A stretch of DNA of 64,000 bases. Source: an uncultured Lachnospiraceae bacterium. GTDB taxonomy: Bacteria; Bacillota; Clostridia; Lachnospirales; Lachnospiraceae. A model generated the notes under the pieces. It did not search any database. It was not told the origin of the DNA and saw only the letters and a program-made list of their open reading frames with translations. Positions 32,547 to 48,705 of the stretch are shown piece after piece; position 1 is the stretch's first letter, and every line of letters starts with the position of its first letter. Where the stretch lies: positions 62,001 to 126,000 of the forward strand of contig ONKG01000003.1 of the NCBI GenBank assembly GCA_900318375.1, written 5' to 3'. The translations under genes were made by a program, and so were the position numbers.

Positions 32547-34748
32547 TTACAGATGCAGGACGCGCTCGCGGATCTCCTGGGTCCGGCCCTGGTTCCAGAA
32601 CTGGGTTCCGATATATCCGCAGGTACGGCGGGCGACGCTCATGCGGGACTGGTCGCGGTTGCCGCAGACAGGGCACTCCCAGACCAGCTTGCCGGCATCG
32701 TCCTCGACGACCATGATCTCTCCGTCATAGCCGCAGCACTCGCAGTAATCACTCTTGGTGTTGAGCTCGGCGTACATGATGTTGTCGTAGATATATTTCA
32801 TAACAGCCAGAACAGCGGGAATGTTGTTCTGCATATTGGGAACCTCGACGTAGCTGATGGCACCGCCGGGAGAAAGTTTCTGGAAATCAGCCTCGAATTT
32901 CAGCTTGTGGAAAGCGTCGATTTCCTCTGTCACATGAACATGGTAGCTGTTGGTGATGTAGTTTTTGTCCGTCACACCCTTGATGATGCCGAAGCGCTTC
33001 TGCAGGCACTTGGCAAACTTGTAGGTCGTGGACTCCATGGGTGTGCCGTAGACAGAATAGCTGATGCGCTCCGCGGCGCGCCACTCGGCGCACTTGTCGT
33101 TGAGGCGCTGCATGACCTTGAGACTGAATTCCCTGCCCTCGTCAGAGGTGTGAGACTTGCCGGTCATGCGGACGCACATCTCATAGAGACCCGCGTAGCC
33201 CAGGCTGATGGTGCTGTAGTTGTCGAAGAGCAGACGGTCGATCTTCTCACCTTTTTTCAGGCGGGCAATGGCGCCGTACTGCCAGAGGATGGGAGCGACG
33301 TCGGAGACAGTGCCGAGCAGCCTCTCATGGCGGCAGCGCAGAGCGCGGTGGCAGAGTTCCAGGCGCTCTTCCAGGATCTCCCAGAACTTGTCCATATCTC
33401 CGTAAGAGGAGCAGGCGACGTCAACGAGATTAATCGTGACGACACCCTGATTGAAGCGTCCGTAGTATTTGTGCTCTCCGTTCTCGCCCAGGCCGACGGT
33501 ATCGGGCGTCAGGAAAGAACGGCAGCCCATGCAGGGATAGACATCGCCGTTTTTGTACTCCTTCATGACCTTGGCGGAGATGTAATCAGGCACCATGCGC
33601 TTTGCCGTGCACTTTGCCGCAAGCTCGGTCAGGCCGTAGTATCTGGAGCCGGGGAAAATATTATCCTCATCCAGTACATAGATCAGTTTGGGGAAGGCAG
33701 GTGTGATCCAGATGCCCTTCTCGTTTTTGACACCCTGCATGCGCTGGATCATGACCTCTTTGATCAGCATGGCCAGATCGTCGCGGGTGCGGCCTGCGGG
33801 GACCTCATCCAGGTACATGTACATGGTGACAAAAGGAGCCTGGCCGTTGCAGGTCATCAGGGTGATCAGCTGATACTGGATGGTCTGGATACCGCTCTTG
33901 ATCTCCTCCGCCAGGCGGAACTCGACGACCTTGTCGATGATCTCGTCGACCATAGGCTCACCGCAGGCCTGCCGCTCTTCCGCCACCTGTTTGCGGATCT
34001 TCCTGCGGCTGACGTCGACAAAGGGAGCCAGATGCGCCAGAGAGAAGGACTGGCCGCCGTACTGGTTGGAGGCGACCTGGGCGACGATCTGTGTCGTCAC
34101 ATTGCAGGCAGTGTAGAAACTATGGGGCTTTTCAATCAGAGTCTCGCTGATGACAGTGCCGTTCTGCAGCATATCCTCAAGGTTGATGAGGTCGCAGTTG
34201 TGCTCCTTCTGGGCATAATAATCGGAATCATGGAAGTGGATGATACCCTCTTCGTGTGCTTTTACCACATCGGCGGGAAGAAGGACGCGGCGGGTCAGAT
34301 CTTTGGACACTTCGCCTGCCATATAGTCGCGCTGGGTAGAATTGATGACAGGATTCTTGTTGGAGTTTTCCTGTTTGACCTCCTCGTTGATCTGCTCGAT
34401 CAGGGCAAGGATCCCGTTGTCGGTCGTATTGGACTTGCGGGACAGCTCGCGGCGGAAACGATAGCGGACATATTTCTGTGCCACCTCATAGCCGCGCATC
34501 TCCATGATGCCGGTCTCGACCATATCCTGGATATCCTCGACATTTACGGCATGCGTGGATTTCTGCACCTCTCTCGCGATTTTCTCCGCGACCGCAATGA
34601 TCTGATACTCGTTGAGCTGGTGGATGGGCTCCACTTCTTTATTGGCCTTACTGATCGCATTGACGATCTTGGAAAGGTCAAATGTAACCTCCTGCCCGTC
34701 TCTTTTGATAATGTTCGTTGTGACCACAATACCTGTATAATCTGCCAT
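32547..34748 (-). CDS. nrdD: Anaerobic ribonucleoside-triphosphate reductase (class III)
   Basis: 733 residues. The N-terminal ATP-cone (NIIKRDGQEVTFDLSKIVNAISKA) is the allosteric activity site. The barrel has MGCRSF and NLVDVACSS. The C-terminus has a zinc site CECCG...CPVCG and the glycyl-radical loop RRTCGYIGTQFWNQGR. It makes dNTPs without oxygen using a glycyl radical installed by NrdG. No nrdG is next to it in this window, which is unusual but not unique. AGGAAGGGAAAAAGAT precedes the start, and NrdR-like boxes lie upstream. Confidence 0.96.
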   Translation of the reverse strand: MADYTGIVVTTNIIKRDGQEVTFDLSKIVNAISKANKEVEPIHQLNEYQIIAVAEKIAREVQKSTHAVNVEDIQDMVETGIMEMRGYEVAQKYVRYRFRRELSRKSNTTDNGILALIEQINEEVKQENSNKNPVINSTQRDYMAGEVSKDLTRRVLLPADVVKAHEEGIIHFHDSDYYAQKEHNCDLINLEDMLQNGTVISETLIEKPHSFYTACNVTTQIVAQVASNQYGGQSFSLAHLAPFVDVSRRKIRKQVAEERQACGEPMVDEIIDKVVEFRLAEEIKSGIQTIQYQLITLMTCNGQAPFVTMYMYLDEVPAGRTRDDLAMLIKEVMIQRMQGVKNEKGIWITPAFPKLIYVLDEDNIFPGSRYYGLTELAAKCTAKRMVPDYISAKVMKEYKNGDVYPCMGCRSFLTPDTVGLGENGEHKYYGRFNQGVVTINLVDVACSSYGDMDKFWEILEERLELCHRALRCRHERLLGTVSDVAPILWQYGAIARLKKGEKIDRLLFDNYSTISLGYAGLYEMCVRMTGKSHTSDEGREFSLKVMQRLNDKCAEWRAAERISYSVYGTPMESTTYKFAKCLQKRFGIIKGVTDKNYITNSYHVHVTEEIDAFHKLKFEADFQKLSPGGAISYVEVPNMQNNIPAVLAVMKYIYDNIMYAELNTKSDYCECCGYDGEIMVVEDDAGKLVWECPVCGNRDQSRMSVARRTCGYIGTQFWNQGRTQEIRERVLHL

Positions 34749-35309: not shown

Positions 35310-37403
35310 ATGATGAAGCTGATCGATACATTTCCCACAAATGAATTAAACGGCCTGCAGTACCGGGTCGGACGTGTGTTTCCCTTCGGAGCGACCCTGA
35401 TCGAAGATGATTGTGTGAATTTCAGTGTCTTTTCCAAGGAGGCATCCGGGTGTACACTGGTGCTCTACCATCGCGGAGAGAGGGAGCCCTTCGCGGAGAT
35501 TCCTTTTCCGGAGGAGTTCCGGATCGGGAATGTCTACTCTATGATGGTTTTCGGCATTGAGATCGAGTCGATGGAATACGGGTACCGCTTCGACGGTATC
35601 TATGACCCTGAGAGAGGACTGCGCTTTGATAAAACACGGGTTCTGCTGGACCCTTACGCGAAGTCTGTCTCGGGGCAGAGTGTCTGGGGGCACGGACCGG
35701 CGCACGGAGATGCTTTCCCGCACCGCGGGCAGATCATCAGGGAGGATTATGACTGGGAGGGCGACAAACCCCTGGAGGTTCCTCTCAGGGATCTGACCAT
35801 CTATGAGATGCATGTCAGGGGTTTTACGCAGGATCCGTCCAGCGGTGTCAAGTACCGCGGAACATACGCCGGAATCGTGGAAAAAATCCCCTACCTGAAA
35901 TCCCTTGGGATCAACTGCATCGAACTGATGCCGGTTTTTTCCTTCGATGAACTCGAATATTCCCGGGACAAAAACAGGCAGAAACTATTCAATTACTGGG
36001 GTTATTCGACGCTGTGTTTCTTTGCGCCCAAGGCCGGCTACGCGGCGGCGGGTCCCTTCGGAATGGAAGCAGATGAGTTTAAGCGTCTGGTCAAAAAACT
36101 CCATGAAAACGGAATTTCTATCATTCTCGACGTTGTTTTCAATCACACCGCAGAGGGGAACGAATACGGTCCGACAATCTCCTACAAAGGAATCGACAAC
36201 CGGACCTACTACCTGCTGACACCCGAAGGCGGCTACAATGATTTCAGCGGCTGCGGAAACACGATGAACTGCAACAATGCCGTGGTCCGAAACCATATCC
36301 TGGACTGCCTTCGCTACTGGGTCTCCTCCTATCATATAGACGGATTCCGTTTCGATCTCGCATCGATCCTGACGCGGGACAAGAATGGCCGTCCCATGAT
36401 GTCGCCGCCTCTCATCGATACCCTCGCCCACGATGCCGTCCTGGGCAGCACCATCCTGATCGCGGAGGCCTGGGACGCCGGCGGACTGTACCAGGTGGGC
36501 AGTTTCCCCTCCTGGCATCGCTGGTCGGAATGGAACGGAAAATACCGCGACTGCGCAAGGCGCTTTATCAAGGGAGACGCAGGCTGCGCACCGGAGCTCT
36601 TGCAGCGGATCGCAGGTTCACAGGACCTCTACCCCAAACGGGGGCCTGCTGCTTCCATCAATTTCATCACCTGCCACGACGGTTTCACACTGTACGACCT
36701 CGTCTCTTATAACAATAAGCACAACGAGGCAAACTGCGAGGATAACCGGGACGGCTCCAATGACAACGACAGCTGGAACTGCGGCACAGAGGGCGAAACG
36801 AACGACCCTGACATCCTTGCTCTGCGCATGCGGCAGATCCGCAACTTCTACACTCTCCTGCTTCTGAGCCGGGGAGTTCCCATGCTGCTCGCAGGCGATG
36901 AATTTGCCAACACACAGCATGGCAATAACAATGCCTACTGTCAGGACAACGAAACATCCTGGCTCAACTGGGACCAGCTCGAAAAAGGCAGGGACCTGTT
37001 CACCTATGTACAGACACTCCTGGCACTGCGCGCCGCCCACCCCGTTCTGCGCGCACCGGATTTTGACAGCGCAATAAACAGCACCGGCTTTCCGGAGCTC
37101 TCCTTCCACTCCCTGACTCCCTGGGAGGTCGATACAAATGCTCCTGCTCTTTCCTTCGCTGTTCTGTACGCGGAGGACCATGTCAAATACAAAACCGAAA
37201 AGGATACCTTCCTCTACGTTCTGATCAATGCCCACTGGGAGGAACACACCTTTACCCTGCCCCAACTTCCCAAAGGGCAGAAATGGCATCTCGTCTGTGA
37301 CTCAAAAGGAATCACTTTCCCCGCAGGAAAAGAGACACCTCTTTTGATCTGCCATCAGTTTACACTAGGCCCCCGTGAGAGCGCCGTCCTGATTTCCCGC
37401 TGA
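35310..37403 (+). CDS. glgX: Glycogen debranching enzyme (GH13 isoamylase/GlgX)
   Basis: 697 residues. An N-terminal CBM48-like domain (YRVGRVFPFGATLIEDDCVNFSVFS) precedes the TIM barrel with DVVFNHTAEG, the nucleophile Asp in DGFRFDLAS, the acid Glu in LIAEAWDAGG and the third Asp in TCHDGFTLYDLV. It cleaves alpha-1,6 branches of glycogen in the cytoplasm. No other glg gene is adjacent. Instead it leads a five-gene operon including an HTH protein (14 bp downstream) and a glycosyltransferase-kinase. This links glycogen use to glycan synthesis (inference). An alternative ATG lies one codon downstream. Confidence 0.92.
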   Translation: MMKLIDTFPTNELNGLQYRVGRVFPFGATLIEDDCVNFSVFSKEASGCTLVLYHRGEREPFAEIPFPEEFRIGNVYSMMVFGIEIESMEYGYRFDGIYDPERGLRFDKTRVLLDPYAKSVSGQSVWGHGPAHGDAFPHRGQIIREDYDWEGDKPLEVPLRDLTIYEMHVRGFTQDPSSGVKYRGTYAGIVEKIPYLKSLGINCIELMPVFSFDELEYSRDKNRQKLFNYWGYSTLCFFAPKAGYAAAGPFGMEADEFKRLVKKLHENGISIILDVVFNHTAEGNEYGPTISYKGIDNRTYYLLTPEGGYNDFSGCGNTMNCNNAVVRNHILDCLRYWVSSYHIDGFRFDLASILTRDKNGRPMMSPPLIDTLAHDAVLGSTILIAEAWDAGGLYQVGSFPSWHRWSEWNGKYRDCARRFIKGDAGCAPELLQRIAGSQDLYPKRGPAASINFITCHDGFTLYDLVSYNNKHNEANCEDNRDGSNDNDSWNCGTEGETNDPDILALRMRQIRNFYTLLLLSRGVPMLLAGDEFANTQHGNNNAYCQDNETSWLNWDQLEKGRDLFTYVQTLLALRAAHPVLRAPDFDSAINSTGFPELSFHSLTPWEVDTNAPALSFAVLYAEDHVKYKTEKDTFLYVLINAHWEEHTFTLPQLPKGQKWHLVCDSKGITFPAGKETPLLICHQFTLGPRESAVLISR

Positions 37404-37417
37404 CAGGAGGACTGAAT

Positions 37418-37870
37418 ATGGACAACCCCGGAAAAAACAAAAGAAACAGGTCTCTGGACACGACCCATATGCAGGAAATGCTCAAGGGCGACAGTTTTCC
37501 CCAGGACTGGGAAGATTTTCTGGACGATGATATCCGGAACTTTTTCGATATATTGCTGAATGAGACAGGAATGAAGAAGAGCGAGATCATCCGCAGGGCC
37601 AACCTGTCCAGGGTCTACGGATATCAGCTCATGGAAGGACGCAGACGCGGGAAAAGAGATTATTATATCCTGATCGCTCTGGCCATGTCCCTGGATCTGA
37701 AGAACACCCAGCGCATGCTGTCGGTGACTCATTGCGGTGCGCTTCATCCTCTGATCAAAAGGGACGCGGCTGTGATCTTCGCGATCAACCACGGATATGA
37801 CATAGAAAAAACCTATTCCTTCATGCTCTCCCTGGGGCTGCAGCCCCTCGAAGACGGCACGGGAGAATAA
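37418..37870 (+). CDS. Small HTH protein
   Basis: 150 residues, 14 bp after glgX. The middle forms a lambda-repressor-like HTH (FFDILLNETGMKKSEIIRRANLSRVYGYQLMEGRR) with a basic RRRGKRDYY patch. The C-terminal half (LHPLIKRDAAVIFAINHGYDIEKTYSFMLSLGL) is a helical domain. From memory, proteins of this type often sit beside Ser/Thr kinase genes in Lachnospiraceae; that is not checked here. Likely a regulator or kinase substrate for this operon. GACAGGAGG precedes the start. Confidence 0.75.
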   Translation: MDNPGKNKRNRSLDTTHMQEMLKGDSFPQDWEDFLDDDIRNFFDILLNETGMKKSEIIRRANLSRVYGYQLMEGRRRGKRDYYILIALAMSLDLKNTQRMLSVTHCGALHPLIKRDAAVIFAINHGYDIEKTYSFMLSLGLQPLEDGTGE

Positions 37871-37944
37871 ACGTTAATGTACATGCCCGCTGACTGCCTG
37901 TACATGTGACGAATAAACAGCACGGAAAACCATGGGAGGTTATC

Positions 37945-39234
37945 GTGACAAAAAGCAGAAAAACAGCAGGCCTCCTGCCTGCAGCCATGGCTATAGTTAT
38001 GGTCCTCATACTTACGATGACGGGATGCAGCCGGACTGCGCAGACCGCCCCCGCCCCGCCGAAAATCGCCTCGCGCTCATCAGCTGCCGGTTTTCTCGTC
38101 TCAAAGGCGGAGGAGAGCGGAGGTTTTATCGGGATTCCTGTCCTGAGAGAAAAAGCCTCCGAATATGCATATCTTTACGACAATGCACTTGCGGTGATCA
38201 TCATGTCCCGGGCAGGTGAACAAAGTACTGCGGAGATGATCGCGGACGCCATTGTGTTCGCGCAGTCGCATGACCGGACCTTCAAGGACGGGCGCCTCCG
38301 CAATGTCTACATCGCCGGCGATCCCCGGAGCGACTCCGGAAGGACCCTGACCCCCGGAAACGTGACGATCAGGCTTCCGGGATTCTGGGAAGACGGAAAA
38401 TGGCAGGAGGAGCTCTTCACCGTCTCCACTTCCACGGGAAATATGGCATGGGCAGTCACCGCGCTCTGCGCGGCGGCGGAAAATGCCTCCGATGAAAAGA
38501 GAACCGAGTACCTGAACGCAGCAATGAACGCTGCGGATTTTGTCCTCACACTCAAATCCGACAACGGGGGCTTTAATGCGGGTTACGAGGGATGGGATGA
38601 CGATCAGACCATGGTCGGATATCAGTCTACAGAGCACAACATCGCACTTGCCTATGCTTTCGATGCGCTGTCCGCGGCGGTTGCCGGGAGTGACCCTGCC
38701 AAAGCGGAGGCTTACGCAGATGCGGCAAAATATGCCAAAGACTTTGTATTCTCCATGTACGACAAAAAGCTCCACTGCTTCTATACAGGTACAAAAGCGG
38801 ACGGCAAAACCGTCAGTGACGGCGTGATCCCCCTGGACACAAACAGTCTTTCGATCCTGGCCTTCGGAGAGGAGCTGGAGAACACCTTCCAGATTGTATC
38901 TTTTGTGGAAGATCGCATGGCGGTCGGAGACGGCTTTGATTTCAGCGCCGGCGACCTGGACGGAATCTGGAATGAAGGAACAGCCCAGATGGCGGTCTGT
39001 TACAAGATATTGGAAAACACGGAAAAATACGAAACCGTCATGGCCTACCTGAAGACACAGACCAATGCGGACGGCTGCATTCCCGCTGCAGACAGAGACG
39101 GCGTCTCGACCGGATTTGTGATCGACGGAACAGACACTTTGTGGGAATATGACAATACCCTGAGCATCGGCGCAACCTGCTGGCTCGCTTTCGCGCAGTT
39201 GGGGATCAACCCCTTTACCCCCCTTTCGAAGTGA
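37945..39234 (+). CDS. Lipoprotein with (alpha/alpha)-barrel glycosidase look
   Basis: 429 residues from a GTG at 37945 (GGGAGG 7 bp upstream). Lipoprotein signal ends LILTMTGC. The mature protein has repeating helical hairpins typical of alpha/alpha toroids (YLYDNALAVIIM, TGNMAWAVTALCAAAE, HNIALAYAFDALS, DTNSLSILAFGEE, IWNEGTAQMAVCYKI), with acidic/aromatic residues such as GYEGWDDDQT. This resembles glycoside hydrolases of the GH8/GH9-like class, but I cannot assign a family. Beside a synthase-like glycosyltransferase it could trim the exported polymer, as BcsZ does for cellulose (inference). Confidence 0.65.
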   Translation: MTKSRKTAGLLPAAMAIVMVLILTMTGCSRTAQTAPAPPKIASRSSAAGFLVSKAEESGGFIGIPVLREKASEYAYLYDNALAVIIMSRAGEQSTAEMIADAIVFAQSHDRTFKDGRLRNVYIAGDPRSDSGRTLTPGNVTIRLPGFWEDGKWQEELFTVSTSTGNMAWAVTALCAAAENASDEKRTEYLNAAMNAADFVLTLKSDNGGFNAGYEGWDDDQTMVGYQSTEHNIALAYAFDALSAAVAGSDPAKAEAYADAAKYAKDFVFSMYDKKLHCFYTGTKADGKTVSDGVIPLDTNSLSILAFGEELENTFQIVSFVEDRMAVGDGFDFSAGDLDGIWNEGTAQMAVCYKILENTEKYETVMAYLKTQTNADGCIPAADRDGVSTGFVIDGTDTLWEYDNTLSIGATCWLAFAQLGINPFTPLSK

Positions 39235-39372
39235 CATCATACACTGTGCCGGCTCGCTTTCGCACAGACGGGGATCAACCCCTTTACCACTCTTTCGAAG
39301 TGACACCATACACTGAGCCGGCTCGCTTTCGCGCAACCGGGGATCGACCCCTTCGGCGCAGTTTCGGAATAA
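39182..39372 (+). repeat. 69-bp tandem duplication of a gene 3' end including its stop
   Basis: GGCTCGCTTTCG recurs at 39182, 39251 and 39320, a 69-bp (23-codon) period. The first copy is the last codons of the lipoprotein gene with its TGA; the second repeats them with another TGA in the same frame; the third is partial and more diverged. The copies lie in the 210-bp spacer before the glycosyltransferase-kinase gene. Confidence 0.85.
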
Positions 39373-39447
39373 TGGCTGATGCCGGAAGGCTGCTCCCGCT
39401 GTCTTCAGACAGAGGGCTTCCGCCTGTAACAGGCGAAAGGTAAATCT

Positions 39448-42400
39448 ATGAAAAACAGACGGAGAAAAGAACGAAGAAAAATACCGGAGGCGCTTGGAAA
39501 CCGGGCGTGCAGTGTCTGGCTGTACGTCCTTGTTCTCGTTTTTGACGCTTCCGCACACGGTCTTCTCCTCTATTCATATGGTTTTTCTTTTTACACCTTC
39601 CTGCACCTGTTTCTTTCGTTTATTTTCTTTATCTACCCTCTCTACTATCTTGCGGACATTCTGTGGTCGCTGCGTCCTTCGGTCTGCGGGATCCTGTCGG
39701 GCGAAATCGCTGTCAACCGCAAATATTATATGAACACTGTCCGCAGGGAGGTCTCCCGGGAGGACCTGCTGCCGGTCACGATCAATATCCCCGTCTATCT
39801 GGAGAACAATGAAGTCATTTTCCAGACGGTCAGAGATGCTCTTGCAGCCGCAGAAAGATACCGCAGCTTCAGCGGCGCAGCGGCCAATGTCGTTGTCTCC
39901 GACGATGGCATCGCGCCCCTTCTGCAGGGATGCTGTGACACCGAGACAGCAGATCTGCTGTTAAATTCCCTCACCTGCGCAAGCGCCGCAGCCAAAAAGC
40001 TTTCGAAAAAGGAAGAGAAGGCCGCAGAGCGCATCCGTTTTTACAGAGAGAACGGGGCAGCCTTCGTGGTGCGTCCGGCGCAGAACCGCCCCGGTCTGTT
40101 TAAAAAAGCCTCCAACATGAATTACACGCTGCGTCTGAGCAAGGCCGTCTCGGAAGGCGGCAGCCTCGGAACGCTCACGGGAAAGGGCGGAGCTTTTGAG
40201 AAAGGATATGCGGAAGGTGATTTTCACATCCATGATATCATTCTCCTTTTGGACAAGGATTCGGGCGTAAAGGAAAGGATCATCGAGGCGGTCGTTCCCG
40301 AGTTCGGCCATGACCGCAAGCTCGCCTATGTGCAGTGCGCCACAGTCGCCAGAAACCTGCGCGAAAATTACTATACCTATGCTACGGGGCACCAGATCAA
40401 CAATCTCTTTCACAACATCTGGCCGTGCAAGGCCCTGCAGGGTTTTTTTGTGCCCCTGGTCGGGCACAATGTTTTCATCAAAAAAAGCCTTCTGGAAAAA
40501 AGCGGTCTGTGGTCGGAAGACCGCGTCTCCGAAGACTATGATAAGGCGATCAGCTTCTACTGCAGCGGCTTTCACGGAAAATATGCCCAGCTGCGCGGGC
40601 TTGAATTCGAGGAATCCGCCAGCCGCACTTTTACCGAGGAGACCCGCAAACAGCACAGATATTCCTACGGCCTTTTTGAGATGATTTTTGACGGGACTGT
40701 TTTCAGCAAAAGGATGCGCGGCTGCGACAGGCTCTATATGCTGATGTATTTCTGCTCTGTCATCAACATGGTCCTGCTGCTTCCCACAGTACTGACGGAG
40801 AGCTATTTCGGCAACATCCATCTGCTCTGGGCGGGCTTTCTTCTGTGCATGGCTTGTTTCATTATCCCTCCCCTGCTGCGGGATCTGGTGATGCACAGAC
40901 GCATCCCCGATGAAATCCTTCAGACTGTCCCCTATACGCTGGTGATCGCAGTCTCCTTCGTCGGACACTCCTACTCATTTTTATCGGGCGGATGCAGGTA
41001 TCTTGCCAACAAGATAAAAAAGATCACTGCGCCGTTTCCGTCCACAAGTGTGGATGATCTGGACTACTGCTTCCGGGGAGGACTTCGGATCCTCTTTGAT
41101 TATATCCGGAAAAATATCCTCTTCCTTCCGATCGCGTTTATGTGCATCGACAGAGGTGTTTTTCTGATCACCAGAAAAGGACTGGAGCCCGTGACGACTC
41201 TCACTTACGGATACATCCTGTTCTGTGCAGTATTTGTCCCTGTATTGCTGACACCGCAGCTTTTTGCAGGCCCCCTGCGTAAAAAGACAGCCGCAGGAAT
41301 CCCGGAGGTAGAAGGGATGAAACAAAAAACAGGCGGAATGCCTGAAAGCAGCCGCGGAGCTGCTTTCTACGGCAGTGAAAGAATCATGTCGCCCGTCATC
41401 ATTGAACAGGACGAAACACAGAGTACGACCGGAAGCGATATCGAGCAGTTCCTGGCCGATTATCAGGAGTCTCTCAAAGCCCTGCTGCCCGAGGCGGATA
41501 TTCCGGAAAGGCTCCTTGCGGATTACGAAATTGAAAGCTGTATCCGCAAAGATCCGGAAGGCCGCAAGGAACTGTATATCCTGCGCCGCAGATCGGACGG
41601 CAAGCCGGCATTTCTCCGTGTCACCAAAGACTATGCCGAGGAAGATGCTCTTGAAGAAGCTTTCCTGCTCGACCGTCTCGATCATCCCGGCATACCCAAA
41701 GTATTTGATGCTTTTGAGCAGAATGGAAAACACTGTCTTGTCCGTGAATATGTGGAAGGACGTACCCTCTACGATATCGTGTCCGAAAAAGGCGTCCTCA
41801 GTGCAGAGGATATTCTGGGCATTGCATTGAAGCTCGGAGAGATCCTGCAGTATCTGCATAATCAGACTCCCCCGGTCATCCACCGGGATATCAAACCGCA
41901 GAATATCGTCGTCGGAAAAGACGGCAGCATCCATCTGATCGATTTCGGTATTGCCAGAGAGCATAAACTGAGGCGCCGCCAGGATACCGCTGTGGTGCTG
42001 ACGCTGGATTATGCCTCTCCGGAACAGTACGGCTTTGAGCAGACAACACCTCTGTCCGACATCTACTCTCTGGGTGTTGTGCTCCTGTATCTGGCAACCG
42101 GACGCACCGTGCGTGCCGATCTGGAAGCCCAGATTGTCAACAACAGACTACGGGAACTGATCGAACAATGTATCGCCTTTAACCCCAAGGCCAGAATCCA
42201 GAGCGCGGAGCAGATCTGCGCCTATATCCGGCGGGATGACAGCCGGAACGTCCGCAGGCGAAGATACCGCATGGCAGCAGCAGGAATTACGGCGGCTGCC
42301 CTTATTCTGGCGGCTGCCTCCTTTCAGGCAGGCTATATGGTCGAGAGCGCCGATATACGGACCGGCAGCTATGACCGCGGATACAGCGCGGGCTATACGG

Positions 42401-43293
42401 ACGGATATGACTCCCGCCCCGTGTTCCGCAGGACGGAAAACACGCAGACCGATCTGCCCGAGGGCACTGTGTCTGAAAACATGGCAGTCCCGGGAGGCGC
42501 ATTTGCGGCGGAAAACGACGGCCTCATTTTCTATATCGCAGACGGCGGTATCTGGAGCATGTCCGCTAACGGGACGGATGCAAAGCTCCTGGTGGAGGAC
42601 AGTAAGGCTCAATCCATCAGCTGCGCGAACGGCTGGATCTACTATACCTCCGGAGATGATATCTGCCAGTCCGCTGTCTACGAAGACAGAAAAGATGTTT
42701 TAACCAGGGAAAAGGATAGCAGACTGTATACCGCTGAAGACCGTTTTTATATCCTGACAGAAAATGGTCTGTCCCTGCTGGATCCCAAGACCGGGAAAAG
42801 ATCAGCGGTCAAAGCTCTCTCGGACTGTATAGCCCTGTACACAGACGAAAACTATCTGTATTTTATTTCCGGCAGCAGACAGGGACTGTATCGATGTGAA
42901 TATGACGGGAAACACGTGGAAAAGCTTCTGGACGACTCCTGTCAGAGTATCTGCAGATCCGGGGACGATCTGATCTGTTCCGTCGAAAAAGACGGTGCTG
43001 CGTCCCTGGTCCTTTTGAACACGGAAACAAAGGAAACACAGCTGCTCCTGGAGACAAAGGCCGCTATGCTCAACAGAGCGGAAAACAGCATTTGTTATCT
43101 TGATCTTTCCAACAATGCCATCATGTGCTGTTCACCCGACGGACGGATCCGGGAGCGTGTCTCCGCCAACCGCGCCGCGGATCTCAATGTTGCCGGCGGC
43201 TGGATCTTTTACCATAACGAAGGGGATGACGGCCGGCTCTGGTGCGTCCGGACCGACGGCTCCAACGACCATCCTCTGCCTTCCGGGAGGTAA
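39448..43293 (+). CDS. Processive glycosyltransferase fused to Ser/Thr kinase and extracytoplasmic propeller
   Basis: 1281 residues. Two membrane helices (about 22-72) lead into a cytoplasmic family 2 glycosyltransferase (about 105-410) with VVSDDG, the metal-binding LLDKDSG (269-271), SEDYD (361-365) and KQHRYSYG in place of QxxRW. A cluster of membrane helices (about 425-607) follows, as in cellulose/chitin synthases. Residues 690-930 are a Ser/Thr kinase: HRDIKPQN (812-819), DFG (832-834), SPEQ (857-860). No Gly-rich loop is obvious, and the VAIK lysine appears replaced by Arg724. A membrane helix (about 942-965) and GYxxGY linker lead to a DUF5050-like beta-propeller (1010-1281) outside the cell. 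It reads as synthase, cytoplasmic kinase and outside sensor in one chain. Confidence 0.85.
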   Translation: MKNRRRKERRKIPEALGNRACSVWLYVLVLVFDASAHGLLLYSYGFSFYTFLHLFLSFIFFIYPLYYLADILWSLRPSVCGILSGEIAVNRKYYMNTVRREVSREDLLPVTINIPVYLENNEVIFQTVRDALAAAERYRSFSGAAANVVVSDDGIAPLLQGCCDTETADLLLNSLTCASAAAKKLSKKEEKAAERIRFYRENGAAFVVRPAQNRPGLFKKASNMNYTLRLSKAVSEGGSLGTLTGKGGAFEKGYAEGDFHIHDIILLLDKDSGVKERIIEAVVPEFGHDRKLAYVQCATVARNLRENYYTYATGHQINNLFHNIWPCKALQGFFVPLVGHNVFIKKSLLEKSGLWSEDRVSEDYDKAISFYCSGFHGKYAQLRGLEFEESASRTFTEETRKQHRYSYGLFEMIFDGTVFSKRMRGCDRLYMLMYFCSVINMVLLLPTVLTESYFGNIHLLWAGFLLCMACFIIPPLLRDLVMHRRIPDEILQTVPYTLVIAVSFVGHSYSFLSGGCRYLANKIKKITAPFPSTSVDDLDYCFRGGLRILFDYIRKNILFLPIAFMCIDRGVFLITRKGLEPVTTLTYGYILFCAVFVPVLLTPQLFAGPLRKKTAAGIPEVEGMKQKTGGMPESSRGAAFYGSERIMSPVIIEQDETQSTTGSDIEQFLADYQESLKALLPEADIPERLLADYEIESCIRKDPEGRKELYILRRRSDGKPAFLRVTKDYAEEDALEEAFLLDRLDHPGIPKVFDAFEQNGKHCLVREYVEGRTLYDIVSEKGVLSAEDILGIALKLGEILQYLHNQTPPVIHRDIKPQNIVVGKDGSIHLIDFGIAREHKLRRRQDTAVVLTLDYASPEQYGFEQTTPLSDIYSLGVVLLYLATGRTVRADLEAQIVNNRLRELIEQCIAFNPKARIQSAEQICAYIRRDDSRNVRRRRYRMAAAGITAAALILAAASFQAGYMVESADIRTGSYDRGYSAGYTDGYDSRPVFRRTENTQTDLPEGTVSENMAVPGGAFAAENDGLIFYIADGGIWSMSANGTDAKLLVEDSKAQSISCANGWIYYTSGDDICQSAVYEDRKDVLTREKDSRLYTAEDRFYILTENGLSLLDPKTGKRSAVKALSDCIALYTDENYLYFISGSRQGLYRCEYDGKHVEKLLDDSCQSICRSGDDLICSVEKDGAASLVLLNTETKETQLLLETKAAMLNRAENSICYLDLSNNAIMCCSPDGRIRERVSANRAADLNVAGGWIFYHNEGDDGRLWCVRTDGSNDHPLPSGR

Positions 43294-43299
43294 CGGAAA

Positions 43300-44997
43300 A
43301 TGACCCGAAAACTACGGTTCAAATGGCCGGACCAGAATGAGCGCACAATCTCTGACATCGTTGAAAACGACGGGACAATGCGCAGCAGAGAGGTCCTCTA
43401 TATCATCGAAAAGCTGTGCACACTTGTCCGGATGCCGGACAAGGGCAATAAAGAAAGTGCGTGGAATTCTGAAACTGCAGGATTTGCAGCTCCTGCAGCT
43501 GGTTCAGATTCTGCGGAATTGACAGCTGCTGCTGCCTTACCGGATCCTGCCGGCCCCGCATCTGCTTTCACGTATTCGGATAGTGCGAAAGGTGCGGAGC
43601 ATCCGGGCAATCCCGAGACTAAAACCGGTTGTACTGCATACATCCATCCGGACAACATACTGGTGAGCCGGACAGGAGAAGTCATCATTGCAGATAAACA
43701 TATCCCGGCCACTGCTGCAGAGCCTTACCTACCGCCGGAACTGGATCTTCGTGAATATTCAAGACCCGCCGCCAGAGTATATTCACTGGGCATGCTCATG
43801 CTGTTCATGTCCACGGGACAGAGCAAAAAAGACGAGGAATCCGCCGCCCAGGTCAGACCGGCACTTCTTAGTCTTGTAAAGGGCTGCACTGCCTTCGATC
43901 CCAATGAACGCTTTCGGGATCCGGAGGCGCTTCTGGAGGCTGTCAGACGCCGGACCGGCATCAAAAAAAGGCTGCTTCCCCTGCTGATCACAGTCGCTGC
44001 AGCCTGTCTGGCCGGCATCATTTTTTTCTTGTCCTGGCAGAAAGGAATTGAACGCGGACATGCCGAAGGGGAGAGATCCGGTTACACGCCCGGCTTTTCC
44101 GAGGGATTTCAGCAGGGCTTCTCCGATGCGCCGGGAATCAGCATTCACGGCGGCTCCCCTGAAAACAACAGCGGTAATCTCCCTGGCAACTACTCCCCTG
44201 AAGGCGGGGCTTTTGCGGTCTCCGACGGGAATGCTGTCTACTATATTTCCGGAGATAGAATCTCCCTTATGGATCCTTATACAAAAGACTTGGAAATACT
44301 GGCGGAAGTTCCGGGTGTGTATGATCTGCAGTACTATGATGGGAAGCTCTATTTCTGCACCGGCGAAAAGGTCGGTTATCTGGATCCCGAGACCCGAAAG
44401 GAAGGCACTGTCTGCAGTTCCCCTGGCGGAAGGCTCTATATCTTTGAAGACAATTTCTACCTCTATGACAATGAAGGAACCCGTTACCTCTACCGCATCG
44501 ATCCCGCACAGGGAGAGATGACACAGCTCAACGGTACTATGGAATATCGCTGCCTGCAGATTGTTGAGGATACCCTCTATTACATTTCCCCCGAAAAAGG
44601 CAGCAGTATCTGCCGCAGCGATCTCGACGGCGGCAACGAGAGCGTGATCAGCAGCAGTTCTTTTGAAGATCTGTGCATCTGTCAGAACACGATCTACGCT
44701 TCCACCGGCGAAAAACTGGTCCGCATGGATCTCAACGGAGGAAATCTGGAGCCCCTGGTCCAGGGCACCATACACCATCTCAACGTCACTGACGGAGGTA
44801 TCTTTTATACCTCCGGAAACGGCGAAAGACTGGAATGGCTGTCTCCCGACTCAAAAACACAGTACACCATCATACCTTCCTCCACCGGTGACTTCAATGT
44901 GGCCGGTGACTGGATCTTCTACATCAACAAGGAGGATGAAAACCGGCTCTGGCGCGTCCGTGCGGGAGGTACAGACAACATCCGTCTGACACCCTGA
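43300..44997 (+). CDS. Membrane pseudokinase with DUF5050-like propeller
   Basis: 565 residues, starting 6 bp after the previous stop with GGGAGG spanning it. The first 220 residues keep only parts of a kinase fold: a helix, an Ala/Pro-rich insert, AYIHPDNILVSRTGEVIIADKHI where HRDxKPxN and DFG should be, and the late C-lobe (RVYSLGMLMLFMSTG). The catalytic Asp and DFG are absent, so it should be inactive. A membrane helix (about 225-245), a GY/GF repeat linker (GYTPGFSEGFQQGF) and an outer propeller (about 300-565) follow, as in its neighbour. Likely partner or regulator of the upstream kinase (inference). Confidence 0.78.
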   Translation: MTRKLRFKWPDQNERTISDIVENDGTMRSREVLYIIEKLCTLVRMPDKGNKESAWNSETAGFAAPAAGSDSAELTAAAALPDPAGPASAFTYSDSAKGAEHPGNPETKTGCTAYIHPDNILVSRTGEVIIADKHIPATAAEPYLPPELDLREYSRPAARVYSLGMLMLFMSTGQSKKDEESAAQVRPALLSLVKGCTAFDPNERFRDPEALLEAVRRRTGIKKRLLPLLITVAAACLAGIIFFLSWQKGIERGHAEGERSGYTPGFSEGFQQGFSDAPGISIHGGSPENNSGNLPGNYSPEGGAFAVSDGNAVYYISGDRISLMDPYTKDLEILAEVPGVYDLQYYDGKLYFCTGEKVGYLDPETRKEGTVCSSPGGRLYIFEDNFYLYDNEGTRYLYRIDPAQGEMTQLNGTMEYRCLQIVEDTLYYISPEKGSSICRSDLDGGNESVISSSSFEDLCICQNTIYASTGEKLVRMDLNGGNLEPLVQGTIHHLNVTDGGIFYTSGNGERLEWLSPDSKTQYTIIPSSTGDFNVAGDWIFYINKEDENRLWRVRAGGTDNIRLTP

Positions 44998-45179: not shown

Positions 45180-45219
45180 GCGGCAGATCACAATTTCGAT
45201 CTGCCGCTTTTCTTTTTTT
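45180..45219 (+). terminator. Terminator of the glgX-kinase operon
   Basis: Stem GCGGCAGATC/GATCTGCCGC with an 8-nt loop, followed by TTTTCTTTTTTTC. Before it, 45000-45175 holds imperfect repeats of AGCACACCC/CAGCACGCTCTG type but no gene. The remaining gap up to 45422 is non-coding and should hold the promoter of the next unit. Confidence 0.85.
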
Positions 45220-45740: not shown

Positions 45741-46577
45741 ATGAAATCAAGTTTACGACCGGAGCATTTTGATAACGGACGCAATTTCAAAAAAGAGGAC
45801 TTTGACGCCTACCTGAGGGCCTCGGAAGAGCTTTCAAAATCGGCGGGCATCAAATATCTTGCCTGCGTCCTGGGCGGTGTGATCATCAGCTTCTTCTTTT
45901 CAAAAGGCATAGGAGGCTTTGCCGGAAACATCCTGGCAATTGTATGCATCTTCGGAGGCATGATCGCGGGTATGTTTTCCAACCTGAGCGTAGGCAGACA
46001 GCTCAAGGTATATACAGACAGACTCGGAATTTCAAACGCAGATGTTGCCAAAGCACGCAAACATTTAAAGCAGGGAACGACAGCCTGGACCGCTGAGCCC
46101 GTCACCTTTGCAAAAAATCCCGCTGCCCCAGCGCAGCGCCCTGCTGCCCCTGCTCCCACGGCGCAGTTTTCCGCCCCGGGCGTGCTGCTGGTCCGTTTCA
46201 GTATCGAAAAGCTCAATGAAAAGAGCGGTGTCTACGGATATGTCTCCGGTGAACTGATTGGCAAAGCCGTTCCCGCCGACCTTCTGGAAGGCATGACCAT
46301 CAGCGACGGCGACTCCGCGGCGACACTTTCCGGTCGGGAATATGTCTGCATCGTCTCGATCGCCTCTCCGGACAGCCGTATTCTGAAAGAAAAGATCGAG
46401 CCTCTGATCCTTGCAAGCGAAGAAATCAGGGCCTGCGGCGCAGCCCCGCTCACACAGATCTGCGCCGGCACAAGAGAGCCCCTGGTTGTGGACGGAGTCG
46501 TCAGAAACGGCCAGATCGTCGGAAACGGCGGATGGTGCGCATCCGGTTTCATGGGTGCATGGAAGGCGGCTTCCTGA
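45741..46577 (+). CDS. Two-TM membrane protein with unknown C-terminal domain
   Basis: 278 residues, AAAGGAG upstream. A soluble start (RPEHFDNGRNFKKEDFDAYLRAS) is followed by two membrane helices (about 39-57 and 62-82), a cytoplasmic helix and a Pro/Ala linker (AAPAQRPAAPAPTAQ). The C-terminal domain of about 120 residues (SIEKLNEKSGVYGYVSGEL, CAGTREPLVVDGVVRNGQIVGNGGWC) is mixed alpha/beta and unknown to me. It may belong with the flanking small membrane protein and lipoprotein. Confidence 0.75.
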   Translation: MKSSLRPEHFDNGRNFKKEDFDAYLRASEELSKSAGIKYLACVLGGVIISFFFSKGIGGFAGNILAIVCIFGGMIAGMFSNLSVGRQLKVYTDRLGISNADVAKARKHLKQGTTAWTAEPVTFAKNPAAPAQRPAAPAPTAQFSAPGVLLVRFSIEKLNEKSGVYGYVSGELIGKAVPADLLEGMTISDGDSAATLSGREYVCIVSIASPDSRILKEKIEPLILASEEIRACGAAPLTQICAGTREPLVVDGVVRNGQIVGNGGWCASGFMGAWKAAS

Positions 46578-46710
46578 TCATCCCGGTTTAATTACTAAAT
46601 TACCGGCAAAAATACCCAAACACCGATGAAAGCACCGACAAAAACACAAGATCACCGGAAGATATACAGAAAACGAAAAAACTAAAGATTCAAGTAAAAG
46701 GAGTTAGCTC

Positions 46711-47514
46711 ATGAAGAAAATAATTGCGTTGCTGATGACAGCCATGCTCTGTCTGGCTCTTCTCTCCGGATGCGGAGGAAGCACACAGAGCAGCACCAGC
46801 GATAAAAACAGTGAAAGCGCTGAAAACAGCGTAAGTAAAGACAGCAAAGTAACAGCAGAAGACAGTACCGATGAAATGAGTGAAGCAGTTTCTGACACAA
46901 GCACTGCCGCAGACAGCGAAGAAGCTGCCGCAGGCACTGCCGGCAGCACAAGTGAGGAAACGGCGGCTGCAGATACCGCCGGCGGAAAGGGATCTGCTGA
47001 CGCAATGAAGGCCGTCATCGACAAACTTGGAATCGGCGGCCCTGTAGAAGATAAAGATAACGCAATGGGAATGCACCTTACAACTGTCAAACTGGATGAC
47101 GACGGCGACATCTACGTCCAGTGGGATTTTGACAATGAAGCCATGCGGTCCAATCTCATGATTGCCTGGAGCAAGGTCACACTGGTCGATCCGGACGATA
47201 TCCACAACACCTACCAGGTATTTACAAGGACTGAAGAAGACAAGATTAGTATTCCCCTCAAAGCAGGTGACATGATCAACGTATTGGACTTTGTGCATAT
47301 TATCAGAAACGATTTTGAAACCGAATCCGATGTGTATATCCTGTATTTTGACGGATCCGAAGGCTGGGCCCCGGATGAGGTCTACACTGCTCCCCAGGTC
47401 TTCATCATAGGGGAAGGAGAAAACGGCCCCGAGGCCTACGAAACCACACCCAGATACGCTCCGGAAGACATGATCACAGCTGTCCGCGAAAACACAGCAA
47501 CAGCAGCAGAATAA
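46711..47514 (+). CDS. Lipoprotein of unknown function
   Basis: 267 residues. AAAGGAG precedes the start. Signal peptide with lipobox ALLSGC (Cys about 22), then a long Ser/Glu/Thr/Ala-rich tether (about 25-95). The folded domain (LTTVKLDDDGDIYVQWDFDNE through EGWAPDEVYTAPQVFIIGEG) is beta-rich. No enzyme motif. A good terminator follows at 47642. Confidence 0.8.
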   Translation: MKKIIALLMTAMLCLALLSGCGGSTQSSTSDKNSESAENSVSKDSKVTAEDSTDEMSEAVSDTSTAADSEEAAAGTAGSTSEETAAADTAGGKGSADAMKAVIDKLGIGGPVEDKDNAMGMHLTTVKLDDDGDIYVQWDFDNEAMRSNLMIAWSKVTLVDPDDIHNTYQVFTRTEEDKISIPLKAGDMINVLDFVHIIRNDFETESDVYILYFDGSEGWAPDEVYTAPQVFIIGEGENGPEAYETTPRYAPEDMITAVRENTATAAE

Positions 47515-47911: not shown

Positions 47912-48559
47912 TTATAGTCTGTCAGAAAGTCGGATAGCCAGGCCCGGAAAGACTTGGCTGGACACCGCATCATCAAAGGAATACAGGTCTGCGTCTTCCC
48001 TCCCGCTTTCAAACACATACACCATGACCGTCCTGTTCACGGGATTGATGATCCAGTATTCGCGCACACCCGCCTCCCTGTACAGAAACAGCTTCAGGCC
48101 ATAGTCGATCTTCTGTGTGGATTTGGAAATCACTTCCACCACCCAGTCCGGTGCGCCGAAACACCCGTCATCTTTCCTTTTATCCGGATCACAGACAATC
48201 GTCAGATCAGGAATCACATACGTGGAATTATCTCCGTGCAGATACACTCCATAGGGCGGAAAAAACACTCTGCAATCCCCACCTCTTCCACGGATATGAT
48301 TGACTATGTCAAAGTATACTTCTCCTGAGATTTCCTGGTGTACAGCCTTGGGAGTCCCTTTAAAGTACAGCTTCCCTCCGATCAGCTCTGCAATCACCCC
48401 TTCCGGAAGCGAATAGATGTCCTTGATCGTATAGATCCTGTCGTCATACATGGCTCCCTCAAAATCCGGCTTGTACCGGTATTCCAGTTCTGCCGCCGAC
48501 TCATGTGCAGAGGCCTTAAAATCGTCCTCTTCATGATGCAATAACTTTCTGTAATCCAT
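47912..48559 (-). CDS. Uma2-family (DUF820) restriction-endonuclease-like protein
   Basis: 215 residues from the ATG at 48559 (GGAGGG upstream). After a short N-terminal tail come the Uma2 hallmarks: IYTIKDIYSLPEGVIAELIGGKLYFKGTP, the PD-(D/E)XK-like core VIPDLTIVCDPDKR and APDWVVEVISKST, and the ending REYWIINPVNRTVMVY. The fold is nuclease-like, but the biological role of Uma2 proteins is not established; they are abundant in cyanobacteria and occur singly in Clostridia. A CCCGTGT repeat lies upstream. Confidence 0.88.
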   Translation of the reverse strand: MDYRKLLHHEEDDFKASAHESAAELEYRYKPDFEGAMYDDRIYTIKDIYSLPEGVIAELIGGKLYFKGTPKAVHQEISGEVYFDIVNHIRGRGGDCRVFFPPYGVYLHGDNSTYVIPDLTIVCDPDKRKDDGCFGAPDWVVEVISKSTQKIDYGLKLFLYREAGVREYWIINPVNRTVMVYVFESGREDADLYSFDDAVSSQVFPGLAIRLSDRL

Positions 48560-48705
48560 TTTCGCCCTCCGCAAAATATGTATATTCGGTATATTTCATA
48601 TTAATTGATTTACCATTATACTCTATCTTTATAAAAAATCAAGGCCTTACGGAGATCGTCTTGTTCTTTCAGAACCCTTTCAGACCCCAAACAGGGAAGA
48701 GACGG

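Follow-up and report, generated by a model that had tools for sequence, protein, structure and literature searches.

The window examined here, a stretch of 64,000 nucleotides from an uncultured Lachnospiraceae bacterium (its draft genome spans 3.93 Mb on 193 contigs and is 82% complete), carries five genes that a first-pass annotation had described as a kinase-controlled glycan synthase operon. All five were found at their claimed places on the plus strand (Table 1). They encode a GlgX glycogen-debranching enzyme, a small protein resembling helix-turn-helix (HTH) regulators, a secreted lipoprotein, a 1281-residue chain in which a family 2 glycosyltransferase (GT2) is fused to a Ser/Thr kinase and a DUF5050 propeller, and a pseudokinase with the same kind of propeller. 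On balance, we favor the view that the locus encodes a synthase-dependent polysaccharide system under protein-kinase control.

The three parts of the fusion each scored above their Pfam cut-offs, PF00069 and PF16472 placing a Ser/Thr kinase and a propeller on the synthase chain, as had been proposed. The synthase half consists of two transmembrane helices, a catalytic core, and about four further transmembrane helices. In a Foldseek search, its AlphaFold model (pLDDT 78, pTM 0.82) matched BcsA best by E-value (3.5e-16), followed by plant cellulose synthases, hyaluronan synthases, and a cyclic glucan synthase, the last of which had the highest query TM-score among the matches listed (0.55). By fold, the description of this half as a cellulose-synthase-like glycosyltransferase holds. 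The motifs SDDG, DKDSG, and SED, which correspond to the DD, DxD, and ED of the GT-A core, are invariant in 23 aligned synthases. Pfam gave no PilZ match in the fusion.

Open fusion frames were present in independent assemblies; the fusion is therefore genuine, and an assembly error as its origin was rejected. A search of 99 relatives, including the window's genome, with the synthase half as query found the fusion in four (window's genome included), in open frames of 1209–1287 residues, the shortest of which hits a contig end. Among 392 genomes of the order there were 11 synthase matches, six of them strong (window included) and five weak (E 2e-5 to 4e-4). A pattern-based scan over genomes of 84,980 species returned 32 loci, 25 with the synthase and seven matching through the kinase region only. 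By record title, the 25 synthase loci are mostly from Clostridia, and 23 are titled as metagenome-assembled genomes. The titles name Lachnospiraceae, Clostridiales, Clostridiaceae, Christensenellaceae, Oscillospiraceae, Ruminococcaceae, Peptococcaceae, and Tissierellia, and further Erysipelotrichaceae, Bacilli, Bacillota, Actinomycetes, Coriobacteriales, Atopobiaceae, and Ohessyouella. The Coriobacteriales genome OH1046 has the kinase form. GT2 synthase, Ser/Thr kinase, and DUF5050 propeller occur together in 21 of these 25 loci from other species, as a single open frame in 19 (frame breaks in L040 and L042); the synthase frame itself is broken in L043 and L049. Some contigs were entered under two names (L014 = L029; L013 = L025; L017/L069 and L046; L035 and L067; L050 and L079/L106).

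The genes around the fusion are conserved with it. The HTH-like gene upstream and the lipoprotein gene were each found in 20 of the 21 kinase-type loci (both absent in L040), and the pseudokinase gene downstream likewise in 20 (split in L040; L029 ends within the fusion). All four genes stand together in 19 of the 21, so the expected co-occurrence of the HTH, lipoprotein, and pseudokinase genes with the fusion was borne out. By contrast, the four synthase loci without a kinase (L043, L046, L048, and L049) have neither the HTH-like gene nor the pseudokinase, and three of them have the lipoprotein, which brings its count to 23 of 25 synthase loci. The difference between 20/21 and 0/4 gives a one-sided Fisher value of 4e-4, relatedness ignored. 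Among the 392 genomes, the lipoprotein is present in all six with a strong synthase match and the synthase in six of seven with the lipoprotein, the five weak synthase matches being excluded (Fisher 1e-12, relatedness ignored). Moreover, when 18 loci are compared, correlated pairwise distances (r 0.76–0.92) are seen among the synthase, the kinase, the propeller, the lipoprotein, and the pseudokinase. Four genes make up the conserved unit: the HTH-like gene and those for the lipoprotein, the fusion, and the pseudokinase. This cassette is an accessory system that keeps its form but occurs rarely and patchily within orders.

GlgX is probably not part of this unit. None of the 25 other synthase loci has a GlgX relative, although 16 of them include 4 kb or more of sequence 5' of the HTH gene, and on this count GlgX was rejected as a cassette member; it is probably a local neighbor. 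The glycogen-debranching gene is thus present as first annotated, and above the curated cut-off, but the sugar-supplying role given to it in the system was not supported. The claim that a terminator follows only the last gene also stood in part: the strongest site of a terminator scan does lie there, but "only" was too strong, as the scan listed 31 sites for the two strands together, where 10.9 were expected. A 69-bp unit repeated in tandem (2.6 copies, 39178–39353) begins within the lipoprotein gene, at its 3' end, and takes up about half of the spacer 5' of the fusion gene; further copies of the unit were not found in this draft genome. Downstream, the first gene of unknown function is 63–73% identical to genes in L026, L027, L028, L030, L041, L042, and L044, and the genes at 45741–47514 have relatives near the cassette that in some genomes are joined to DUF805 or WG repeats.

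Table 1. Genes and features of the fusion locus and its flanks, in window coordinates.
Feature	Positions	Strand	Basis
Anaerobic ribonucleoside-triphosphate reductase gene, upstream of GlgX	32547..34748	-	
GlgX glycogen-debranching enzyme	35310..37403	+	TIGR02100, 677 bits against curated NCBIfam cut-off of 641
Small HTH-like protein, 150 residues	37418..37870	+	Ortholog conservation; kinase neighborhood of relatives
Secreted lipoprotein, 442 residues; (alpha/alpha) toroid glycosidase fold, putative CrdC family	37906..39234	+	AlphaFold model, Foldseek, profile
Fusion gene, 1281 residues	39448..43293	+	GT2, kinase, and DUF5050, each above Pfam cut-off
GT2 synthase half, residues 1-611	39448..41280	+	PF13632; BcsA best Foldseek match
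Predicted cytoplasmic Ser/Thr kinase domain, about residues 688-931	41509..42240	+	PF00069, 3.5e-36
Single transmembrane helix (about 941-962) and stretch with Gly every fourth residue	42268..42420	+	Hydropathy
Predicted extracytoplasmic DUF5050 propeller of the fusion	42424..43293	+	PF16472, 1.4e-27
Pseudokinase, 565 residues: degenerate C-lobe, transmembrane helix, glycine-repeat stalk, DUF5050 propeller	43300..44997	+	PF16472, 2.7e-22
Terminator-like hairpin with T-rich tail, 3' of pseudokinase gene	45180..45207	+	10-bp stem, then TTTTCTTTTT
Gene of unknown function	45741..46577	+	C-terminal half recurs downstream of the cassette elsewhere
Lipoprotein-like gene	46711..47514	+	65% identical over residues 102-259 to a gene that follows the cassette in L013
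Uma2 family gene (putative restriction endonuclease)	47912..48574	-	

The lipoprotein was annotated as having an alpha/alpha-toroid fold, and its AlphaFold model (pLDDT 77, pTM 0.80) is, by its Foldseek matches, an (alpha/alpha) toroid. The lipobox cysteine is invariant in 23 of 23 aligned lipoproteins. The best matches were dextran dextrinase (which we take to be a GH15 enzyme), methylmannose polysaccharide hydrolase, and chitobiose phosphorylase, with GH76 enzymes lower, at query TM-scores of 0.41–0.57. A BcsZ-like identity was unsupported (profile comparison probability 2.5%; CMCax, presumably of GH8, ranked 39th by fold). When plasmid records were searched with the lipoprotein by tblastn, 43 matched at 28–33% identity, among them 20 from Agrobacterium, 12 from Azospirillum, and seven from Rhizobium. 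Its profile matched proteins of Agrobacterium, Rhizobium, Nitrobacter, and Phyllobacterium across the entire domain at E 2e-67 to 2e-62, the Agrobacterium protein at 2e-67. In four of eight plasmid regions fetched from the 43 records, the relative adjoins a GT2 gene annotated as cellulose synthase catalytic subunit. An HlyD-family gene is annotated near the relative in Phyllobacterium, Rhizobium, and Nitrobacter, and the first gene in Agrobacterium is a weak HlyD-type match; Agrobacterium and Rhizobium have the order HlyD-synthase-relative, Phyllobacterium and Nitrobacter the order HlyD-relative-synthase. This arrangement was not seen in two Azospirillum regions or in Kitasatospora, and the Streptomyces region is unannotated.

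The Agrobacterium set looks like the curdlan genes crdA-crdS-crdC, a likeness based on the order of the genes, the length of crdA, and the fit of primers. Its first gene measures 1455 bp, against a published 1458 bp for crdA. Four published primer pairs were placed with their published spacing kept, and each was compared with 20 shuffles. The crdA pair falls precisely on the 5' end of the first gene (8 of 37 mismatches; best shuffle 16), and the crdC pair fits inside the lipoprotein relative at its 248-base spacing (10 of 40; best shuffle 17). Neither the crdS pair nor a second crdA pair did better than shuffles, though the best place of each is still within the expected gene. In the Rhizobium region, the crdC pair was best placed inside the relative (14 of 40 mismatches), and it found no fit in the Phyllobacterium and Nitrobacter regions. 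Because gene order, crdA length, primer fit, and the profile E-value of 2e-67 point the same way, we place the lipoprotein, by sequence, in the CrdC family. Across 13 members of a wider set, Glu168, Glu243-His244-Asn245, and Glu357 are among the invariant residues, a pattern as would be expected for an enzyme. A 950-residue Kitasatospora plasmid protein (L131, 4174–7023) has a C-terminal CrdC-family domain and sub-threshold ricin-type lectin matches.

CrdC is essential for curdlan production, and its function was called unknown in 2023 (PMC10819609). The product of the cassette might accordingly be specifically a curdlan-like beta-1,3-glucan, and the close profile match to a gene of a crdASC-like operon speaks for it; however, we consider this rather improbable. 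The synthase could not be supported as a direct CrdS ortholog: tblastn at E 1e-3 gave no match in 72,556 plasmid records that include the CrdS-like genes, and the profile match is weak. Furthermore, Pfam detected no CrdA/HlyD gene in the cassette, the crdS and second crdA primer pairs were not above chance, and CrdC-family proteins occur without an adjoining synthase in Azospirillum, Kitasatospora, and one further genome (G107).

The same synthase is also found with other regulators. In two genomes (G194 and G449), a synthase 40–42% identical to that of the cassette is fused to degenerate GGDEF and EAL domains, one GGDEF domain lying below and one just above the Pfam cut-off, and in both a lipoprotein relative adjoins the fusion. 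Judged by eye, the G194 protein has lost its GGDEF motif and has a substitution at one Asp of the EAL-domain DDFG, which makes it likelier to act as a receptor than as an enzyme. In Ohessyouella blattaphilus PAL227, the lipoprotein and a standalone synthase precede a histidine kinase and a response regulator. At L048, the synthase has a sub-threshold match to a carbohydrate-binding module, and the lipoprotein was not found at that locus. The regulatory half is therefore interchangeable, with a kinase, a cyclic di-GMP (c-di-GMP)-type module, or a two-component module on one core. This supports gating of the synthase by whichever module is attached, the occurrence of three kinds of regulator on one core being the best evidence here for such control.

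The c-di-GMP-type variant bears on a different product. In G194, the lipoprotein relative carries a GDPD domain and a sulfatase-fold enzyme is encoded upstream of the fusion; this combination suggests phosphoglycerol chemistry. At L068 (2679–10005), this variant comprises a sulfatase-fold enzyme, presumably a phosphoglycerol transferase, a CrdC-family/GDPD fusion, and a synthase fused to GGDEF-EAL, a set that may point to decoration of the glycan with phosphoglycerol. The cassette synthase might then make a short membrane- or wall-linked decoration, of a teichoic-acid-like or osmoregulated-glucan-like kind, and no exopolysaccharide. The neighbors of the c-di-GMP-type variant, if the enzyme is of the phosphoglycerol-transferase kind that we assume, and the top query TM-score of the cyclic glucan synthase are consistent with this. 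We nevertheless regard it as unlikely, for the best Foldseek E-values belong to processive synthases, and no such neighbors were noted in the shared clusters of kinase-type loci, where families were checked for cluster representatives.

We next consider the kinase. In an alignment of 22 rows (21 distinct sequences, as L014 and L029 are one contig; L040, L042, and the kinase-less loci left out), the HRD Asp814, the DFG Asp832, and a Glu in the alphaC region, picked by eye among two adjacent Glu, are invariant. So is Lys707 (21 of 21 distinct sequences), which lies in beta2 at the third-glycine position of the nucleotide loop. WNK kinases have their catalytic Lys at the third-glycine position of beta2; judged by eye against the anatomy of WNK1, the placement of Lys707 appears WNK-like, and we take this as a lead. 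Four Clostridiaceae loci (L031, L032, L033, and L036) encode a second Ser/Thr kinase of 577 residues downstream of the cassette, near 16.2–18.1 kb; in L031 this protein has leucine-rich repeats and, by eye, the same Lys/Arg pattern as the fusion (compare fusion residues 688–755, window 41509–41712).

The annotation of the last gene as a pseudokinase with the same propeller was correct: it matches DUF5050, and HRD and DFG are missing in 21 of 21 rows (by eye). In the fusion and the pseudokinase alike, a transmembrane helix is followed by a stretch with Gly at every fourth residue. The pseudokinase has seven to eight glycines so spaced in 18 of 21 rows and three in the other three, where 210 shuffled stretches reached at most four. 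The fusion has runs of two to seven in 22 rows, and 220 shuffled stretches reached four on four occasions, five once, and six once; since shuffles reach four to six, the runs of the fusion are less clear than those of the pseudokinase. These shuffles ignore relatedness. A stalk formed by pairing of the two proteins is plausible from this spacing.

The HTH-like protein is 71–81% identical in 18 cassette orthologs, with Thr15 invariant in 20 of 20 rows. The small HTH protein of the first-pass annotation is thus a conserved gene in its stated place, but the HTH fold itself was reached only below threshold: six of eight distant relatives have sub-threshold HTH matches, all in one common region. 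The HTH-like protein did not match the HTH_3 protein that the window also encodes. At E 1e-6, 87 of the 392 genomes have relatives of it, and three of these genomes (G000, G081, and G118) have a strong synthase match. Among 29 further HTH-like loci from this search, two were cassette members; a Ser/Thr kinase gene lies within about 1.5 kb of the HTH-like relative in 21 of the remaining 27, and 13 of 19 larger regions, selected from the list and overlapping the 27, also show a kinase. The relatives lie in loci L057–L060 and L077–L125, and the window's genome has HTH-like paralogs on C69 (one divergent from an 805-residue kinase frame) and on C81. Kinase and HTH-like protein thus form a pair that also exists outside the cassette, and the cassette resembles a pair of this kind to which a synthase has been added. 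The HTH-like protein is a putative transcriptional partner and a possible substrate of the kinase.

In the proposed mechanism, about six membrane helices anchor the GT2 half, which, as its fold suggests, would polymerize a nucleotide sugar and extrude the chain. Outside, the CrdC-like lipoprotein would act on the chain as it emerges, either as an enzyme that processes the glycan or as a guide. The kinase would lie in the cytoplasm beside the synthase, connected by the single transmembrane helix to the DUF5050 propeller outside. The pseudokinase, with its similar helix, glycine-repeat stalk, and propeller of the same kind, is probably a partner of the fusion in sensing and paired with it. A ligand, which could be the polymer itself or a glycan of the wall, may alter this pairing, upon which the kinase would change synthase activity in cis, by phosphorylation or conformation, and may signal to the HTH-like protein to adjust transcription. 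A broader formulation is that the GT2 and CrdC-family core is a scaffold for plug-in regulators, placed under a kinase with a WNK-like lysine in most lineages found, under c-di-GMP-type domains in others, and under two-component partners in another, that the cassette would be the first described case of synthase and kinase on one chain, and that its kinase acts on the synthase in cis and on a dedicated HTH-like partner in trans; we hold this more tentatively, at slightly less than an even chance.

Several observations weigh against kinase control of a polysaccharide synthase as we read it. The cassette is rare: a search of the class with the synthase alignment, under a strict cut-off, found the synthase in three of 391 genomes. 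Its resemblance to BcsA is distant: the fold match is remote (query TM-score 0.50, rmsd 12), the PDB profile gave only E 0.005, hhalign probabilities were 49% to Escherichia coli BcsA and 66% to CrdS-like proteins, and KQxRY, with Arg and Tyr invariant in the 23 synthases, stands at the QxxRW position, where it aligns with QRIRW. The best fold match of the lipoprotein is also remote (TM-score 0.57, rmsd 7.7). None of the 20 cassette HTH-like proteins matches an HTH family above a curated cut-off, and in 18 loci their distances correlate less with those of the other parts (0.49–0.57). A home-made motif search over 21 upstream stretches, which ignores relatedness, found no common operator 5' of the HTH gene; a shared operator was rejected because scores of 73 (shuffles 54 and 58) and 87 (shuffles 65 and 77) went with positions that did not agree between loci, several of which had no site. 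Lastly, the beta3 Lys position of the kinase is Arg in 16 and Lys in six of the 22 rows (15 and six of the 21 distinct sequences). Its glycine loop is also degenerate when judged by eye, and an inactive or unusual kinase is therefore conceivable.

An inactive kinase leads to another account, in which the fusion is a scaffold whose inactive or nucleotide-binding pseudokinase domain positions the synthase and its partner at sites of wall synthesis, while the HTH-like protein controls expression on its own. Besides the Arg at beta3 and the degenerate glycine loop, the presence of a second, clear pseudokinase in the same operon and the existence of a standalone synthase form (L046) fit such a scaffold. 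On the other side, invariance of the HRD and DFG Asp, the alphaC-region Glu, and Lys707 would be odd in a dead kinase, and the alternative forms of the synthase carry other signaling modules. We therefore think the scaffold unlikely, if somewhat less so than the curdlan-like and decoration products, and retain kinase control of the synthase as the favored reading.

Compared with described systems, the cassette shares with the Agrobacterium curdlan operon crdA-crdS-crdC a GT2 synthase and a secreted protein of the putative CrdC family, but its synthase is distant from CrdS, and in place of an HlyD-like CrdA it has the kinase, propeller, and pseudokinase module. With BcsA/BcsZ it has in common the synthase fold, the GT2 core motifs, a C-terminal regulatory module on the synthase chain, and a secreted partner of glycosidase fold; it differs in having a kinase in the place of PilZ, KQxRY for QxxRW, and a partner not recognizable as BcsZ by profile. 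PknB and StkP, which are among the best PDB sequence matches, also combine a kinase domain, one transmembrane helix, and an outside sensor, whereas the fusion has DUF5050 instead of PASTA, an N-terminal synthase, and mostly Arg at the beta3 Lys position. The clostridial ccsZABHI locus is likewise a synthase-dependent polysaccharide locus with a glycosidase partner, CcsZ, which belongs to GH5; the word "kinase" appears nowhere in the main text of its description (PMC7710045). In Romboutsia ilealis, the mixed-linkage glucan synthase RiGT2 is a Gram-positive GT2 synthase with a C-terminal domain, which is PilZ-like and required for activity, with no c-di-GMP dependence seen (PMC10374906); the cassette fusion has instead a kinase and an outside propeller. 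Titles and abstract beginnings in the open-licence literature yielded no description of a synthase-kinase fusion. We judge the cassette to be a new regulatory variant of synthase-dependent polysaccharide systems.

The CrdC link offers a hypothesis, a glycosidase-fold protein, for a gene essential for curdlan whose function was still described as unknown in 2023 (PMC10819609). The HTH-kinase neighborhoods found across the order are a candidate general signaling module. Synthase-dependent polysaccharides are gated by c-di-GMP domains. In the cassette, a protein kinase occupies the place of such a domain, in anaerobes from gut, rumen, and other habitats, and the fusion suggests a new way to switch polymer production. 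The three kinds of regulator on one synthase core constitute a natural experiment in synthase gating.

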